Source: Ruminococcus flavefaciens (GTDB lineage: Bacteria; Bacteroidota; Bacteroidia; Bacteroidales; P3). Taken from it: a stretch of DNA of 64,000 bases. Position numbers and translations under genes: made by a program. Below are positions 25,884-36,649 of the stretch, in pieces; positions within the stretch are counted from its first letter, which is position 1, and every line of letters begins with the position of its first letter. The notes under the pieces were generated by a model. That model searched no databases, had not been told where the DNA came from, and saw nothing but the letters and a program-made list of their open reading frames with translations. The stretch covers positions 304,820 through 368,819 of the forward strand of contig JAMPAI010000001.1 in NCBI GenBank assembly GCA_023667315.1. Reading direction: 5' to 3'.

Positions 25884-27740
25884 TTACCGGCGCTGCAGTT
25901 TGGTGCGGTAAACTTGTCGGGATGTACGTACTTCCAGGATATACAGGCCGGAAGGCAGCCTTTCCACATCGATTTCGGCGGTGTTCCCCTTTACGCGGAA
26001 CACTTCGATTCCATTAACCGACAGAATCCGTATGTGGAGTATCTTTCCGCAGTTTTCCAAACCGGCTATATGCACCGTGTTCCGGCAGGGGTTCGGGTAG
26101 ATATGGAGCGTGCCGGCATCCGTGCGTTCTAACGAAAGCGTGTCCGTAGGATTGGGATTGTCGGGAATCGTGTCGGCGGGGTCTTCGGGCAGGGTGGGGC
26201 GGTCGGGTTGGTTCGGGTCCACTGTTTCTGCCTTGCCGATACACAGCATGATGACGGCGCTGTCCTTGTATTTGCCGTCGAGTTCGGCAAAAATGCGGTC
26301 GTTCTTTTCGGTAAAGCGCACGAAGCCTTCGCCCGAACCGTTGTTGATGCCGTCGCGCTGCTTATCGTGAATGACAAAGGTGTGGCAGGCATCCGAGATA
26401 TGCAGGTTATAGGTGTGCAGTTCGGTGCCTCTCGAGGCCAGATCCTCATAAGGGCCGTCTTGGGCCACCGTATCCCCTTGCCCGTTCTTCAAGACCCACG
26501 AGATATCTGACCCGAAACGGTCTTGCTGCACGGCCAGGCTTATGTCGGGGTTCTCCGTAAGGCCGAAATGTTTTATGGCCGAACCCTCGGTGTACTGCGC
26601 CTGGCGGTTCAGGAACTCGCCTCCGTTTACCGACACGATGGAGAAATAGAGGGTTTCGTTGCGGTTGGCCTGGGCCAGGGCGATGGGCTGTGTTTCAACG
26701 TATGCGGATTCCCCGGCGGGTATGGGCCGGTCGAGGCTGTAGGTGTGCTGCGTGCTTTCTGCAACGCCCAGGCTTTCGAGCACCAGGCTTGAAATGGGCT
26801 CCGTGGAGAGATGATGGTTGTTTATGCGCACCGAAAAGCGCACGTCTTTGTTGCAGGTGTTCTGGGCAATCTGCACGGGGTCGGAGAGGTAGGCGATGCG
26901 GGCGGGGCGGTTCACGTCCTGTACCGTGACGGGGCAGACGTTCAAGATTTCCTCCTTGCTTTCAGACACGAAGGCGATAAGCTGCAGGTCGCACAGGTTC
27001 AGCTTTACCTTGCCTATCTTGGACGGCAGGGTCTTGGTGAAAGTCTTTTCGATCAAGGTGCCGTTTCCTTGCGGGTTTACTTCCTCGCCCCATTGTCCGG
27101 TAAGGAAGTCGCGGAAAACGTGCATGTGCAGGTAGCGGTCGTCGGGCGTTACCTGTGTCGGGTTCAGGTAGGAACCGTTCTGGTAGCCGATAATGCTGTC
27201 TTGTAGAACGGCCACGTGGATAAAGTTCTTCTGGGACGGCGTGCCCGTGTAGTACAGCTGCACCTTTACCGATAGTTCGCGCGTTTCCCAGTTCAGGATG
27301 GCTTGGGCGGCAATGTTCACGTAGGACGGCATGGCCAGAAGTTCGGCCGCGCGCTCATTCCAAACGTCCCGGTTGAGCGCCGTTGTGGTATTGGGAGCGA
27401 ATATATGGCGGTTCAGTGAACCTGTGGGAATGGACAAGGCGCTGGCCTGGAGAATCAGCTCTTCGCCGTAGGCGGTGCGCAAATCGATCTCGTTGGCCGA
27501 TACGGGGGCGGCAAGGCCGGTGCCGTGAACATTCATCAGAAATACCTGTTGCGGATGTTCGGCCATAAGTTCGGCCGCCCTTTTGTGGCCGTCGGGGCAG
27601 TTGCCGCAGTTTATGGCGGTATATTCTTCCAGCAAGACATTTCTGTTTTGTGGCACATCGCTTACAAAGCGAGTCTGGGCGTTGGCGGCAAAGAGACAGG
27701 AAAGCGCCGTCAGTGGCAGCAGGAAGCGGAGTTTTTTCAT
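25884..27740 (-). CDS. Omp28-like secreted protein with CxxC and T9SS sorting domain
   Basis: The 618-residue precursor starts with a signal peptide (MKKLRFLLPL, cut near NAQ); the longer in-frame extension upstream is rejected because it would bury the signal peptide. LLEEYTAINCGNCPDGHKRA places a thioredoxin-like C45-x-x-C48 at the start of the Omp28-type domain (about residues 30-240). Middle segments form beta-rich domains of unknown family. A Pro/Asp-rich linker (PDRPTLPEDPADTIPDNP) leads to the type A T9SS domain, which contains LHIYPNPCRNTV and LPSGLYILEVRTS. It is probably a surface-exposed protein; a redox role is suggested by the CxxC only. It follows the 1115-residue T9SS protein on the same strand. 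Confidence 0.88.
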   Translation of the reverse strand: MKKLRFLLPLTALSCLFAANAQTRFVSDVPQNRNVLLEEYTAINCGNCPDGHKRAAELMAEHPQQVFLMNVHGTGLAAPVSANEIDLRTAYGEELILQASALSIPTGSLNRHIFAPNTTTALNRDVWNERAAELLAMPSYVNIAAQAILNWETRELSVKVQLYYTGTPSQKNFIHVAVLQDSIIGYQNGSYLNPTQVTPDDRYLHMHVFRDFLTGQWGEEVNPQGNGTLIEKTFTKTLPSKIGKVKLNLCDLQLIAFVSESKEEILNVCPVTVQDVNRPARIAYLSDPVQIAQNTCNKDVRFSVRINNHHLSTEPISSLVLESLGVAESTQHTYSLDRPIPAGESAYVETQPIALAQANRNETLYFSIVSVNGGEFLNRQAQYTEGSAIKHFGLTENPDISLAVQQDRFGSDISWVLKNGQGDTVAQDGPYEDLASRGTELHTYNLHISDACHTFVIHDKQRDGINNGSGEGFVRFTEKNDRIFAELDGKYKDSAVIMLCIGKAETVDPNQPDRPTLPEDPADTIPDNPNPTDTLSLERTDAGTLHIYPNPCRNTVHIAGLENCGKILHIRILSVNGIEVFRVKGNTAEIDVERLPSGLYILEVRTSRQVYRTKLQRR

Positions 27741-31269: not shown

Positions 31270-34224
31270 CTATCGTACGATTACGCGTTTAACAGCCATC
31301 AGGCCGTTGTCGGCGGTAAGGCGAACGAAATAGATGCCGCTGTGTTCGAGGCGCACTTCCGTTACCCCGGCGGGCATCGTAAAGGTCTTTGCAATCATGC
31401 CGTTGGCGGTAAAGATTTCCACCTTGGCGGCTACGGGCGCTTCAATCTTAAAGTTGCCGTCGTTCGGGTTCGGGTAGAGGTGAACACCGGCCAGTTCTCC
31501 GTTTTCGTTGGCGGTGTTTTTCTTAACGGTGTAGGCGGCTTCGGCTACCGCAGAGTTCACCAGACCGTCCTTAATGGCGATGGCCTTGATGGTCATTGCG
31601 CTGTCGATCTTGATTTTGGCGGTGTACTTGGTGCTCTTGTCGGTAGGCGTGGTGCCGTCGGTGGTGTAGTAGATGTCGGCTCCGGCGGTGTCGCAGAGAA
31701 TTTCCACTTCCGTACCGGCTTTCACTTCTCCCGCGCCCGGGTTGAATCTCGGCGCGGCCACCGTATCCTTTTCCTGTTCTACCGCTTTCACTTTGTATTC
31801 GGCATAGAACCAACGGAAGATAGGTTCACCTTCTTCCGTCATATCGGCCATATAACCGGCCTTGAGAACGGGTTTTTCGGCATGGAATACGGGGTAGGCG
31901 TATTGGTCGTCTTCTTCGTCGGGCTCACCGTAGAAGAATACTTCCACGTCTTCGCCGTTCAGCATGGCTTCGTCGGTGCAGGCTTCTGCGGAAGCCTTGC
32001 TGGGGAACCAGGCAAAGAAAATCTCGGTATCCAGTTCGTCCGAAGGCGTGATCGTTATCGTGTCGTTTTCTTCCAGTTCGGTACCGGTGGCGGGGGTAAA
32101 GCTCAGGGTAACTTCCGGTTCGGGTTCTTCTTCGGCCACCGTGTAGGTAATCTTGGCGATGTCGGAGGTAATCAGGCCTTCCTTAACGGCAATGGCCCAG
32201 ATGGTCATGTCCGAGTCGATCGAGATGGGGTCTTCGTACCGGGTGCTGTTAACCGTTACGGTATCGGCGTTCACGGAGTAGTAAATCGTAACATCGGCGG
32301 TGTCGCAGCTAATTTCCACTTCCGTGCCCACAGGCACTTCGCCTTCTTCCACGCTGAACTGGGGCATGTCCACCTTGTCCATAACGTTGTATTCGGCATA
32401 GAAGTTCGTGGCGACCCAGGCTTCATCATCCGAGTTCCAGATACCGGCGCGGATAACGCGTTGGTCTTTCTGCAGAACCGGAAACTTGGTTTTTGATTCT
32501 ACTAGGGTTTCGGCATCATAGCCATCCCAAAATCCATCCGCATTCTTGAACAGATCGCTCGCTTCGGCTTGCGTTCTGGAGTAGAACAGTGCATAGTAGA
32601 TGAGTTCGTCGTCTGATAAACCGACGCCTTCGATTTCGACTTCAGTTCCGGGGAGAACGGTGGTGTCGTCCGCCGGAGAGAATTTTACTTCAACGGCTCC
32701 CCCTATGGTGTATTCGGCATAGAAGTCGGTCTTGGTGAATTCGCCGGTTGCGGCAACGGCAATACCGGCTCGGATAATGGTGTGGTCTTCATCAATGGTA
32801 ACGGTAGTGGTAGGAGCCGCATTCGTTAAACTTGGGAGTTGGAATGCCCCCCAATTTTGCGACCATAAAGCATCGGCCTCGGCTTCGGCTTTCGTCTTAT
32901 AGAGCTGGTAGTAGTAAGCATCGATGTTTTTCGCATTGTTTACCCTAATGGTTACTTGGGCTCTAGAAGCAACCGTACCGCCGTTGGGGCTGAAGTTAAA
33001 GGATGCATCGGCTGCAATGGTGTAGGCCGCCGTCGCAACCTCCGAGATCTTGCCGTCTTTAATGGCGATGGCCTTGATGGTCATCTCTTCGTTTACGATG
33101 ATACCGTCTTCTTCGTTATACAAGGTGCTGGAGGCGGTCGGTTCGCTGTTGTCGGTGGTGTAACGGATTTCGACATCCTTATCTACTCCATCCGGACCTA
33201 TGTAAATAATGCTAACTTTCGTTCCCTTAGAAACTGCCCCGGCTTCCGGTCGGAATTCGGGCTGGCGAACCTCTTCGGCAGGTTTTTTAACGGTGTAGGA
33301 AGCGTAAGCGGGTTCCGACCACGTTGTATAATTCAAACAAAGGGAAACCCTAAATACCGGTTTGTCGGCAGAGATGGCAATAGGTTTGTTGACTATAGCG
33401 ATGCCTGCGTCGCTATAATTTTCATCGGGCCAGGTATCGGCTTTGGCTTCATCAAGGGTGGCGTAACATTTATAATAGGCAAAGCCTTTGCCACTGCTGA
33501 CAGTCCCTGTAATAGTACATGTAGTACCGGGTTCCACTTCTGTACCGCTAACGGGATCGAAAGTAACCGTTACAACCACAGGTTCCTTAACGGTATAGCT
33601 GGCTTCGGCCACTTCCGATTCCGAGCCATCTAAAATGGCGATGGCCTTGATGGTGACTGCTTCGGTAATTTTGATAGGCGCCGTGTATTCCGTGCTGGAA
33701 GCGGTGGGCGTGCTCCCATCGGTGGTGTAGTAAATGGAGGCACCGTTTGTGGTGCACGTAATCGTTACCTCGGTGTTGGGATCCACTTCACTGCCCGCAG
33801 GGGTAAAGGTCGGGGTGGCCACATTTATATCTGGATTCTCGGAACCTCCGGCAATGGTGTATTTGGCGAGAAAAAATGGCTCAGTTAATGTTTCGTTGTC
33901 ATCGTCAAACATACCTACACGGATAACGGTTTTTCCTTCAGAAATGGTAGGTACTGTACTTCCTATATCAACGAGTGCAGAACCCCATTCATCCCAAAAA
34001 CCATCACTGCTTTTGAAATACTCACTGTTTAGGGCTTCTTCTTCGGATGAGGACAGTGCATAATAGTACGTATGCGAATTGTCCGTACTCTTAATTTCAA
34101 TTGGTGTTCCGGAAGAAACTTCAGAACCAGAGGGTGGGTTAAACGTTACTTGTGCTGTTGCTAATCCCATGGTGGCAAATAGCACGCTTAGGGCCGCTAA
34201 GGCCCGGCAAAATAACTTTTTCAT
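31270..34224 (-). CDS. T9SS surface protein built of alternating chitobiase-C-like and variant repeats
   Basis: The 984-residue precursor has a signal peptide (MKKLFCRALAALSVLF, cut near ATAQ). Nine tandem beta-sandwich repeats follow. Four are chitobiase/hexosaminidase C-terminal-like (type B), with the core SIYYTTDGSTPT, then TIKAIAI and ASYTV. Five are a longer variant (type A), with YYYAL or YYALFYS, an AEA helix-like insert, VIRAG and FYAEYTV. The order appears to be A-B-A-B-A-A-B-A-B, followed by the T9SS domain (HLYPNPNDGNF, ending VKRVIVR). No enzyme domain is present. Carbohydrate or surface binding is plausible for such folds but not shown. The coding sequence is somewhat less G+C-rich in the last repeats. 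Confidence 0.87.
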   Translation of the reverse strand: MKKLFCRALAALSVLFATMGLATAQVTFNPPSGSEVSSGTPIEIKSTDNSHTYYYALSSSEEEALNSEYFKSSDGFWDEWGSALVDIGSTVPTISEGKTVIRVGMFDDDNETLTEPFFLAKYTIAGGSENPDINVATPTFTPAGSEVDPNTEVTITCTTNGASIYYTTDGSTPTASSTEYTAPIKITEAVTIKAIAILDGSESEVAEASYTVKEPVVVTVTFDPVSGTEVEPGTTCTITGTVSSGKGFAYYKCYATLDEAKADTWPDENYSDAGIAIVNKPIAISADKPVFRVSLCLNYTTWSEPAYASYTVKKPAEEVRQPEFRPEAGAVSKGTKVSIIYIGPDGVDKDVEIRYTTDNSEPTASSTLYNEEDGIIVNEEMTIKAIAIKDGKISEVATAAYTIAADASFNFSPNGGTVASRAQVTIRVNNAKNIDAYYYQLYKTKAEAEADALWSQNWGAFQLPSLTNAAPTTTVTIDEDHTIIRAGIAVAATGEFTKTDFYAEYTIGGAVEVKFSPADDTTVLPGTEVEIEGVGLSDDELIYYALFYSRTQAEASDLFKNADGFWDGYDAETLVESKTKFPVLQKDQRVIRAGIWNSDDEAWVATNFYAEYNVMDKVDMPQFSVEEGEVPVGTEVEISCDTADVTIYYSVNADTVTVNSTRYEDPISIDSDMTIWAIAVKEGLITSDIAKITYTVAEEEPEPEVTLSFTPATGTELEENDTITITPSDELDTEIFFAWFPSKASAEACTDEAMLNGEDVEVFFYGEPDEEDDQYAYPVFHAEKPVLKAGYMADMTEEGEPIFRWFYAEYKVKAVEQEKDTVAAPRFNPGAGEVKAGTEVEILCDTAGADIYYTTDGTTPTDKSTKYTAKIKIDSAMTIKAIAIKDGLVNSAVAEAAYTVKKNTANENGELAGVHLYPNPNDGNFKIEAPVAAKVEIFTANGMIAKTFTMPAGVTEVRLEHSGIYFVRLTADNGLMAVKRVIVR

Positions 34225-34483
34225 AGTGAAAAGTTGTTTGTGTTAATAAATTTGTGTGTTTCGGTTGTACCCTCCGAACGGCATCTTTTGGCAAAAAGAC
34301 ACTGCCCGAAAGGCGCTATAAAGGTATTAAAAATTTGCAGAGAAACAACGTATTTGCCTAATAACTATCGACATTTTTTTGCCATCAGGGGCAAAAAAGG
34401 CATTGGGTTATGCTGTACGTTGTTTTGCCGGCAAAAAAGTTTTTTGCTAAGGAGGGGCAATCTAAGGAAGCCTAAAAGAGATG
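34225..34483. other. AT-rich intergenic region with three T-GCC/GGC-A dyads
   Basis: These 259 bases hold no gene. Three short dyads of the same design occur: TTTTGGCAAAA at 34286-34296, TTTTTTGCC-ATCAGG-GGCAAAAAA at 34375-34398, and TTTTGCCGGCAAAA at 34423-34436. They lie 3' of the AlbA_2 gene and 5' of the repeat-protein gene. Confidence 0.6.
34375..34398 (-). terminator. Possible terminator of the AlbA_2 regulator gene
   Basis: A 9-bp stem with a 6-base loop is flanked by A and T runs, about 86 bases after the AlbA_2 gene stop on the minus strand. The stem is weak apart from its three G-C pairs. Confidence 0.45.
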
Positions 34484-36007
34484 TTATTTTTGTAACAGCA
34501 ACCGGCCTTTTTCAGTAAGGAGGTACTTTTGCTTCGGATGATTAGGGGTTTGGGGATATAACGGAGCGACAAGACCCGCTTGTTGGGCAGGGGTCAGGTA
34601 GTTGTTTAGAAAATTTTCCCTATCCTTCAATCGCAGCAAATCCATCATTTCTTTAACTGAAAGTTGTTGTAACCCAATGGTTTCAATAAGAAAAAGTACT
34701 TGTCGGGTACTTGTCGGGTACTTGTCGGGTACTTGTCGGGTACTTGTCGGGATTTGCTTGGAACTTGTTCGGTATTCAAATGTGCTTTCCGCGCATTTCA
34801 AAGAATCCCCACCATCTGCCGAATATCCGGCCACCTTTCTTGTATAACGGAATATCACCCACGAAAAATTGCCATCGGTATGAAATTCGGGTTCAGGAAG
34901 ACCCACACGGAGGCACTCGTTAATCATCAGACTAATGCCACGCCCCCAGTTTTCCAAAACATCGCTTCGATACAATACGTTGGCAATAATAGGGTTATGT
35001 GGGTCTGAACGATGTTCAACCTTTATCTTTTCGATATCTACGTGTTGCGAAAAGGTTCCGGAATTTTCAATTTCCACCCTATCGTCATAAATGGCAATAC
35101 CTACCGAACTGCCAGGACGGTGGTAGGCACGATGGCAGAAAGCATTGATGCAGCATTCTCGCAACGCCTTATACGGAATGCTGAGTTCTTCTTCGCGATA
35201 TAGGCCTTCTATCTTGCCTGAAAGCGATAAGTGCTTAAAGAAGAATGTCATAGCGGCATCTAATAAAGCGTAAATGTTACCTTGGACTCGTTGGTTGTCA
35301 AAAAATTCATCTTTGGTGGTTCCCTTAAATCGAGCCAAACGAAGAACGCATTGCGGGTAATTATAAAACCTATGGCCAAACAGAACGGCAGCTGCGTTGT
35401 TCAACATGCCTTGATGTCGCAAATCGAATTTGTCGAGGATTACCGGAATTTCTTCCCGTATTGTGGTTTCGGGCAAACGTCCGCTGCGGATTCCGGCTCT
35501 TACGGCTCCCATAATGGCATTGTTGTCGAGGTCATCCAATCCAAGCTCGGGATTTATTATCGATTCCCAACTGTTTTTGCCTCCATGTTGCATCAAAAGT
35601 TGGTGATAGAGGGTTTGTGGCATGGTAGAGGTTACGCTTTCAATCCGTTGATAGGGTCGTCCCTTGTAACAGAATGGACGTGAGTACCGGGCGTTTTCTA
35701 CATGCAGTGCAACCACCATTTTGGAAGAATTCGGCAATGCGGTGTAGGAAACTTGTACATCAGCCCTTGGTTCCAGCCGGTTAATTGCGTCCGCTATATT
35801 CCGTTTGGTATTGTCTGCAACTTCTTGCCCTGTGATTTTGCCTTTGTCGTTTATGCCGAACAATACGGTACCACCCGAATCATTCAGAAAAGCACACAGG
35901 GTTTCCATGCCACGTTCCAATTGCCCGGTAGTTTCTTTAAACTCTACCTGCTCGTTTTCCTTATTGGCAATCAATCTCTGTATCGTGTCAAGATTATCTA
36001 TTTCCAT
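34484..36007 (-). CDS. AlbA_2/Schlafen-type ATP-binding regulator containing an 11-bp repeat
   Basis: The 507-residue protein begins with an AlbA_2 domain (about residues 12-130: ENEQVEFKETTGQ, then GGTVLFGINDKG). A HATPase-like C-terminal segment follows (about 260-400: ALRECCINAFCHRAYHRPG and VLENWGRGISLMINE). This is the architecture of COG2865-type putative transcriptional regulators. The last 70 residues look like a winged-helix region. Between the ATPase part and this tail, residues about 419-437 (PTSTRQVPDKYPTSTRQV) are encoded by five exact copies of an 11-bp unit. Copy change would shift the frame and remove the tail. The gene is visibly richer in A+T than its neighbours, which hints at horizontal transfer. 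It stands alone and has its own promoter. Confidence 0.85.
   Translation of the reverse strand: MEIDNLDTIQRLIANKENEQVEFKETTGQLERGMETLCAFLNDSGGTVLFGINDKGKITGQEVADNTKRNIADAINRLEPRADVQVSYTALPNSSKMVVALHVENARYSRPFCYKGRPYQRIESVTSTMPQTLYHQLLMQHGGKNSWESIINPELGLDDLDNNAIMGAVRAGIRSGRLPETTIREEIPVILDKFDLRHQGMLNNAAAVLFGHRFYNYPQCVLRLARFKGTTKDEFFDNQRVQGNIYALLDAAMTFFFKHLSLSGKIEGLYREEELSIPYKALRECCINAFCHRAYHRPGSSVGIAIYDDRVEIENSGTFSQHVDIEKIKVEHRSDPHNPIIANVLYRSDVLENWGRGISLMINECLRVGLPEPEFHTDGNFSWVIFRYTRKVAGYSADGGDSLKCAESTFEYRTSSKQIPTSTRQVPDKYPTSTRQVLFLIETIGLQQLSVKEMMDLLRLKDRENFLNNYLTPAQQAGLVAPLYPQTPNHPKQKYLLTEKGRLLLQK
34697..34751. repeat. Five perfect tandem copies of an 11-bp unit (VNTR)
   Basis: The unit TACTTGTCGGG occurs five times without a mismatch inside the AlbA_2 gene, and a degenerate copy (ACTTGTTCGG) lies just upstream in the gene. 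Eleven is not a multiple of three, so each gain or loss changes the reading frame. None of the three frames contains a stop within the repeat. Confidence 0.97.
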
Positions 36008-36025
36008 ACGTAAATATATACACAA

Positions 36026-36033
36026 CAAAGGTA
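36026..36033 (-). promoter_or_regulatory. -7 box of the AlbA_2 regulator gene
   Basis: The minus strand reads TACCTTTG, an exact TAnnTTTG match, 18 bases upstream of the chosen ATG. This supports that start over the in-frame ATG seven codons earlier. Confidence 0.5.
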
Positions 36034-36082
36034 CGCGATTTACTTGGGAATCTTTTTATATGTCCATAATAACTTTTTTTGG

Positions 36083-36090
36083 TAAATTCG
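36083..36090 (+). promoter_or_regulatory. Candidate -7 box of the ferritin gene
   Basis: TAAATTCG, a TAnnTTYG-type box, lies 73 bases before the ferritin ATG. No operator for an iron or peroxide regulator was recognised. Confidence 0.4.
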
Positions 36091-36163
36091 CCCTTGCATT
36101 CTGTTTCTCTTTATGTTGGGGAAATAGGTGCGCTTAGATTGACAACTTTAAAATTTTAAAGCC

Positions 36164-36649
36164 ATGGTGATTTCAAAAAAACTCGAAAAGGCTCTTAACG
36201 AACAGATTGCCGCCGAAATGTGGTCGGCCAACCTGTACACTTCCATGTCGTTCTTTTGCGAAAAGGAAGGATTCAACGGTTTTGGCAGCTGGCTCAGAAA
36301 GCAGGCCGCCGAAGAAATGGAACATGCCTATATGATGGCCAACTTCCTGATTCAACGCGGCGGCACGGCCAAGGTGAGCAAGCTTAACGAAGTGCCGGGT
36401 TCGTGGAAAACCCTGCTCGATATGTTCAAGGCCGTATATGCCCACGAATGCCACGTGTCCGACCTGATCAACAAGCTGCTCGATATGGCGGTGGCCGACA
36501 AGGACAAGGCCAGCGAAGACTTTTTCTGGCAGTTCGTGCGCGAGCAGGTGGAAGAAGAAGCTACGGCCTCCGACATCGTTTCCAAGATTGAGAAATTCGG
36601 TCAGACCGCACTTTTCCAATTGGACAACAAGTTCGGCGAACGCAAGTAA
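36164..36649 (+). CDS. ftnA: Bacterial non-heme ferritin
   Basis: The 161-residue protein matches FtnA in length and in its four-helix pattern. The ferroxidase-centre residues are visible: E in NEQIAAEMWSANLYTSM, the E-x-x-H pair in EEMEHAYMMANF, and E in REQVEEEATASDIV. Twenty-four subunits form a hollow shell that oxidises and stores iron in the cytoplasm. It is transcribed alone. A hairpin 22 bases after the stop is a weak terminator candidate. With the rubrerythrin at 53394 it is one of two iron/oxygen-protection genes in the window. Confidence 0.95.
   Translation: MVISKKLEKALNEQIAAEMWSANLYTSMSFFCEKEGFNGFGSWLRKQAAEEMEHAYMMANFLIQRGGTAKVSKLNEVPGSWKTLLDMFKAVYAHECHVSDLINKLLDMAVADKDKASEDFFWQFVREQVEEEATASDIVSKIEKFGQTALFQLDNKFGERK

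Follow-up and report, generated by a model that had tools for sequence, protein, structure and literature searches.

A gene for an AlbA_2/ATPase regulator contains a perfect tandem repeat with a unit of 11 bp, located directly before the region encoding the C-terminal domain. The repeat raises the question of what keeps it there: is it a switch that turns the C-terminal part of the protein on and off by slippage, as was proposed in an initial annotation made from the letters alone, or does it serve a purpose which lies in the DNA itself, in the messenger or in the encoded peptide? We approached this question computationally, starting from the 64,000 nucleotide stretch of DNA that harbors the gene (the window) and comparing the repeat with those of related genes.

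The array and its gene

The regulator had been described as an AlbA_2 and an ATPase part followed by a winged-helix-like tail, and the Pfam matches bear this out, since all three domains lie above their cut-offs (SLFN_AlbA_2 70.3 versus 25.3 bits, HATPase_c_4 78.6 versus 26 bits and Fic-like_C 67.8 versus 27 bits; Table 1). The five exact copies claimed within the coding sequence ahead of this tail are also present: a scan of the window gave TACTTGTCGGG five times at 34697-34751 without a single mismatch. The array is the top of the 19 tandem-repeat rows of the window (score 112, 100% matches). When one mismatch was allowed, six matches to TACTTGTCGGG were found in the window with the sixth at position 25911, compared with a mean of 1.18 and a largest number of 4 in 100 shuffles of the window. 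The 251 bases around the start of the gene contain one CAAG word and no array. NCBIfam gave no match, and PADLOC gave only partial ones, the models being those of pAgo and SIR2-Argonaute. The next gene downstream (31270-34224, minus strand) encodes a 984-aa protein with four CHB_HEX_C_1/Fn3_assoc stretches and a Por secretion tail.

Table 1. Features of the array gene in the window
Feature	Position	Strand	Remarks
Gene of the 507-aa protein SLFN_AlbA_2/HATPase_c_4/Fic-like_C winged helix	34484..36007	-	ATG at 36007
SLFN_AlbA_2 domain, PF04326	35624..35959	-	E 2.6e-19
HATPase_c_4 domain, PF13749	34850..35113	-	E 3.5e-22
Fic-like_C winged-helix domain, PF21247	34514..34702	-	E 7.4e-19; its start is the end of the array
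Array, five exact copies of CCCGACAAGTA (11 bp, coding strand)	34697..34751	-	Exact-match and tandem-repeat search
Two more CAAG cores, 34764-34767 and 34757-34760, directly 5′ of the perfect copies	34752..34767	-	

A DNA core common to the relatives

An exact double unit is present in one of 393 genomes across the order, namely in the window's own genome. As the exact copies are thus private to this genome, the core was compared between genes instead. A protein search for relatives of the window protein gave matches in 45 of 61 genomes, and in many of these relatives the same linker contains a tandem repeat, whose period is mostly 11 or 12 bp and whose sequence differs from gene to gene, while some have none. 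Because linker repeats are common to the relatives and yet differ in sequence, we collected the genes by the winged helix itself. PF21247 is found in 60 of the 149 genomes of the family. A purpose-built profile recognized the winged-helix domain in 98 of 128 loci, and after identical linkers were dropped and near-identical ones kept 81 linkers were left. CAAG is present in 73 of these 81 linkers, the other eight being without CAAG despite the winged helix, and ACAAGT is present in 42, its frequency in the linkers being about 50-fold that in the gene bodies. A later set, collected after the motif had been seen, is made up of 80 relatives from public genomes, the best of 476 and mostly of Bacteroidales, and of two viral loci whose linkers are identical to each other. 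Less four duplicates and one truncated locus this set comprises 77 linkers, all 77 of which contain CAAG and 73 ACAAGT.

The units are composed of ACAAGTAC and three to four variable bases (AGG, CCC, CCCG etc.), which are often mixed within one array, and the coding-strand core common to the arrays reads (A)CAAGT(A)CC. The relatives with the Fic-like_C winged helix, mostly Fic proteins, have their arrays at the same place. At the level of the sequences, the conserved feature is this DNA core common to the genes and not the perfect copies seen in the window.

Spacing, strand and reading frame

The position, orientation and spacing of the units can be read directly from the sequences, as can the sharing of the core across genes and frames and its association with the winged helix. 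Nearest-neighbour spacing of CAAG in 157 linkers is 11 bp in 212 cases, 12 bp in 152 and 13 bp in 13, with none at 10, one at 9 and one at 14 bp, and there are smaller peaks at 5 and 22 bp with 12 each. The respective numbers for the gene bodies are 0, 2 and 2 at 11, 12 and 13 bp among 412 spacings. A linker holds from 0 to 10 chained units. The arrays are direct repeats with a common core, spaced about one helical turn apart. Of the 77 linkers derived from the best 80 of 476 relatives and the two viral loci, 52 have CAAG in each of the three reading frames, compared with only 19 of the 81 linkers of the first set.

The words were also counted in 141 linkers and compared with synonymous recoding and with a stricter control, in which the synonymous codons were permuted within each linker. 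ACAAGT was observed 288 times, as compared with 35.0 (sd 5.9, max 51) after recoding and 132.3 (max 155) after permutation; ACAAGTAC was observed 189 times versus 10.1 and 72.4 (max 88), respectively, and CAAG 557 times versus 196.9 and 379.8. The excess over recoding is therefore 8-fold for ACAAGT and 19-fold for ACAAGTAC, and 2- to 3-fold under the permutation. The reverse-strand word CTTG was found 55 times versus 44.0 (max 59) after recoding and 41.2 (max 53) after permutation. As CTTG is near expectation and ACAAGT far above it, the excess is confined to the coding strand. Tandem duplication inflates the counts of a repeat, so that the recoding tests are not independent of slippage. The stronger argument is that one core recurs in different genes and frames, part of which is explained by shared ancestry. 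Selection on the array at the DNA level is well supported.

Association with the winged helix

ACAAGT was not found in the examined region of any of 30 Fic loci that are not PF21247 places; these controls, the highest-scoring Fic loci of 61 genomes of the family, are members of other Fic groups, and the comparison hence does not keep the enzyme domain constant. They do hold single CAAG words, 0-5 each. AlbA_2-type genes with other C-termini served as a further control, of which 27 were collected, 21 scored (L057 in a wrong frame) and six left unscored, among the latter L058 with a CAAG chain of three. CAAG chains are present in 131 of 156 winged-helix loci versus 2 of the 21 scored controls, and ACAAGT in 119 of 156 versus 3 of 21. 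A crude motif sort of 117 long-frame loci gave chains in 83 of 86 Fic-type, 5 of 10 AlbA_2-type and 10 of 21 unsorted loci, and the evidence is thus strongest for the Fic-type genes; the window gene is an AlbA_2-type member with a strong array. For 18 loci no enzyme part was recognized by motif within 600 bases, and 14 of these have a chain (e.g., L173, L215, and L226). All in all the array tracks the DNA-binding domain and not the enzyme domain, the exceptions being L136 and L058.

Both exceptions are from the window's own genome. At L136 (G000:C14 ~4684) three 12-bp ACAAGTACCCCG-like units lie within about ten bases past the stop codon of a Fic gene, and this gene bears a different winged helix (HTH_24-type) beside the array. 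At L131/L058 (G000:C11 ~103190) an AlbA_2-type gene ends in CAAGTGACGGAA repeats, and more CAAGTGACGGAA units follow behind the stop at the start of the next open frame.

A loose array pattern was found at 24 places in the own genome versus 14 for the reversed control, and nine of the 24 belong to the window gene, its relative on C77 and the L136 and L131 genes. A strict pattern gave 49 places in 23 of the 149 genomes of the family, the reversed control 15 places in 13 genomes, and in 17 of the 23 genomes a strict-pattern place coincides with a winged-helix place. The places in the other six genomes are of several kinds. L238 is an inverted repeat, like L263 in one of the 17 genomes, L255 is coding DNA rich in lysine and threonine, and the array at L257 is accompanied by a truncated winged helix. 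Genome G523 contains 16 copies of one 19-bp sequence, ACAAGTACTGTACAAGTAC, which is also present in G515; the copy at L240 (G523) lies within an inverted repeat resembling that of a mobile element. At L253 (G404:C4 ~1503) three ACAAGTACAGG-like units are situated between genes, and no Fic or AlbA_2 gene was recognized in the stretch read there.

What looks like a second array type was seen at nine loci (L007, L011, L017, L026, L053, L056, L285, L291, and L300), at which another type of winged helix is accompanied by 12-bp arrays of other sequences encoding single-frame tetrapeptides (NVGK, SSGK, STEK, KSNQ). At L045, L112, and L272, the 12-bp repeats are CAAGTGTATAAG-like and fall within the winged helix (VYKQVYKQVYK).

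Plasmids and a second phylum

Of 52 plasmid records with a match nine were read. The array is CCCCCCAAGTCA with 3.0 copies in a Deinococcus plasmid, CCGGACAAGTTG with 3.8 copies in a plasmid of Legionella anisa and CCCCTCAAGTCA with 3.9 copies in a Methylomonas plasmid. A plasmid of Legionella adelaidensis has 7.1 copies of GTCAAGGCATGA with CAAG in another context, plasmids of Synechococcus and Prosthecochloris have related degenerate forms, and an Azotobacter plasmid has a 12-bp array without CAAG. No array was seen at the Acinetobacter plasmid locus. In an oral Prevotella the repeats are inside the winged helix.

In a second phylum, that of the Lentisphaerae locus of G537, the domain is present in 61 of 194 genomes. 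Of 29 loci read here, 20 have a CAAG chain and four are without any CAAG. Many of the arrays are 12-bp arrays in one frame, encoding x-V-T-x; L334, L335, L337, and L340 are 11-bp arrays in three frames, and the linker of L335 is that of L229 from the set of 77. Judged by their sequences, related arrays are present in plasmids of Deinococcus and Gammaproteobacteria and in this second phylum. For threonine the array uses ACC in 18 of 19 loci (17 from the second phylum and two from plasmids) versus 37-40% in the gene bodies; a loose search gave ACC in 23 of 29 loci, some of which are not arrays. Synonymous sites thus look constrained even in single-frame arrays, although these loci share ancestry and the peptide may also have a role there.

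Some of the relatives have neighbors of a particular kind. The Azotobacter plasmid relative (L266) is situated between brxC and pglX and the Synechococcus plasmid relative (L267) is flanked by the genes for subunits S and R of a type I restriction system. Past the stop of a Citrobacter relative (L274, 1797-1952) there are two CTTG pairs with a spacing of 11 bp, which precede a type I restriction R gene and may be due to chance.

Copy number and reading frame

The window gene was translated with 1-11 units. With 2, 5, 8, or 11 units the full protein is obtained with the winged helix in frame, confirming the earlier statement that only copy numbers equal to five modulo three keep the tail. With 1, 4, 7, or 10 units the protein ends in TFSY, a stop within five codons as had been predicted. 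With 3, 6, or 9 units the predicted early stop is encountered as well, 16 codons past the array and not about 18 codons as estimated. The unit of the window array therefore shifts the frame and the other frames have stops, as is required of a phase-variable locus.

Among the relatives, however, out-of-frame alleles are not common. The enzyme part is visible at 71 loci that have one or more steps of 11 or 13 bp; 67 of them keep the frame and four do not (L107, L164, L184, and L114, the last one being broken inside the winged helix and not at the array), whereas about one third would be expected in frame if frames were random. Pure 12-bp arrays are in frame at 45 loci and out of frame at one (L071); loci without a chain are in frame in 20 cases and out of frame in three (L175; L031 with an N gap; L041 with a stop), the frame states of short loci having been assigned by hand. 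In five cases (L164, L175, L184, L107, and L071) a break in the linker region puts the winged helix into another frame than the enzyme part. Two 13-bp units and a 45-bp stretch distinguish the otherwise near-identical loci L049 and L107 of two genomes, L049 being in frame and L107, a remnant of a gene, out of frame, and the similar loci L116 and L117 differ in the number of their 12-bp units. From such differences in unit number and frame we conclude that slippage happens. In-frame pure 11-bp arrays have 2 (four loci), 3 (17 loci), 4 (22 loci), 5 (11 loci), or 6 copies (three loci); changes in the flanks thus compensate, and no copy-number class modulo three is fixed. Sampling was one genome per species with regard to phase variation. 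A Citrobacter relative was matched by 24 of 5426 E. coli genomes, and of four of these E. coli regions three have the gene annotated as short or split; the DNA of the Azotobacter gene gave no match to E. coli.

Discussion

The relatives share a motif at one-turn spacing, often in three frames, and the repeat in the window is therefore probably an intragenic site for protein binding and not primarily a slippage switch. We lean slightly towards the more specific reading that it is a direct-repeat array acting at the DNA level, i.e., an intragenic operator or iteron, which belongs to the Fic-like_C winged helix.

Simple-sequence contingency loci, the basis of phase variation, have a repeat unit that is not a multiple of three inside a coding sequence, and in this respect the window repeat is alike. 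Slippage of 11-bp units toggling the winged-helix tail would agree with the frame arithmetic of the window gene, with the five perfect copies, which suggest a recent expansion, with the five loci out of frame at the linker region and with the varying unit numbers of L049/L107 (13 bp) and L116/L117 (12 bp). Unlike at contingency loci, however, 67 of 71 relatives with 11/13-bp steps have retained the frame, and different genes have a conserved core in common while the remainder of the unit varies; about two fifths of the spacings are 12 bp (152 compared with 212 of 11 bp) and unable to shift the frame, and L107 at least is a remnant gene. On the frame counts we reject phase variation as the main and sufficient account. 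What stands of the original proposal are the frame arithmetic and the existence of out-of-frame alleles, but not the switch as the main function, which we regard as unlikely. Phase variation is possible without being the rule among the relatives, and frame shifts by gain or loss of units would mostly be a side effect that is removed by selection. It is hardly credible that the array is a neutral minisatellite in a tolerant linker that gathers duplications: the wide range of 0 to 10 chained units would be accounted for, but one core at one spacing is not expected of unrelated linkers, and here the core is common to the genes, the spacing is nearly confined to 11-13 bp and the orientation is fixed.

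The repeat could also be of use to the protein, with an x-V-T-x tetrapeptide linker that binds a partner or spaces the winged helix and with the DNA pattern resulting from codon use and duplication. The many 12-bp one-frame arrays of the second phylum and the plasmids (QVTP, EVTG, HVTP, and similar) point in this direction, as do the HTH_24-type winged-helix relatives with their likewise in-frame tetrapeptides. We nevertheless consider this explanation quite unlikely since a core that is read in all three frames, as in 52 of the 77 linkers of the later set, does not keep a single peptide, and since there is constraint on the synonymous positions (ACC at 18 of 19 loci). A signal at the RNA level, such as a target in the messenger for a nuclease or a regulator or a cause of ribosome stalling, would be consistent with the strand specificity of the core and with the location of the arrays in or just behind coding regions. 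Winged helices, however, are a fold that normally binds double-stranded DNA, and the arrays track a winged helix across genes with different enzyme parts. In addition one array (L253) lies between genes and Rfam gave no match over 34300-36300, which makes an RNA signal distinctly improbable in our view.

In the preferred reading as an intragenic operator or iteron, the cores of one orientation, 11-13 bp or about one DNA turn from each other in the linker-coding DNA next to the winged-helix domain, would be bound side by side, perhaps as a filament, by the winged helix of the encoded protein, similar to TubR or BldC. The protein's own winged helix would be the most likely ligand of the array. 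Binding inside the transcribed gene might then limit expression, i.e., lead to autoregulation, for example by a roadblock to RNA polymerase. Alternatively, binding might tether the protein to its own locus.

Winged helices that bind arrays are already known, and in the ParR/parC system ParR acts in repression. At the plasmid centromere array tubC the small winged-helix protein TubR binds several direct repeats beside its own operon and represses this operon (PMC5016525). The likeness to TubR/tubC consists in a winged helix and a direct-repeat array near its own genes, with presumed binding in our case, whereas tubC is upstream of the operon and the array described here is within the Fic or AlbA_2/ATPase coding sequence. 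BldC lines up along the DNA with one DNA turn between the molecules, and BldC and RdfS form head-to-tail winged-helix oligomers at promoters and an att site with weak or absent motifs, as far as stated in the excerpted text (PMC11963761). Compared with the sites described in that excerpt, the arrays reported here have a strong core and sit inside a gene. The C-terminal domain of PDB entry 4rgl matches the window protein with E 1.7e-8 (profile E 6.2e-17) and is of the same family by sequence; 4rgl is named a Fic protein, whereas the window protein has AlbA_2 and ATPase domains instead. Literature searches, in which subscription journals are thinly covered, gave no description of such an array, and the matches listed in a search with the core letters and PF21247 look unrelated and are without PF21247. 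In our reading the new aspect is an array that is written through a coding sequence, across frames, beside a DNA-binding domain.

A more far-reaching proposal, which we put forward only tentatively and with some doubt, is that Fic and AlbA_2/ATPase proteins of several phyla sharing one winged helix carry an array for their self-recognition. If true, the protein would read the gene that encodes it, and its expression would be set by the presence, copy number or replication state of this gene; the array might even hold the enzyme inactive with the DNA acting as an antitoxin. The unit length could drift (11, 12, 13 bp) because the core and not the peptide is under selection.

A frame-shifting repeat need not mean a phase switch. 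If the arrays are indeed operators or iterons, widespread bacterial Fic and AlbA_2 genes, some of which adjoin restriction or BREX genes, would carry a regulatory site across their own protein code, and a repetitive peptide linker which looks frame tolerant would have been shaped by selection on the DNA. The arrays would then offer a direct route to the control of these little-studied Fic and AlbA_2 winged-helix proteins.
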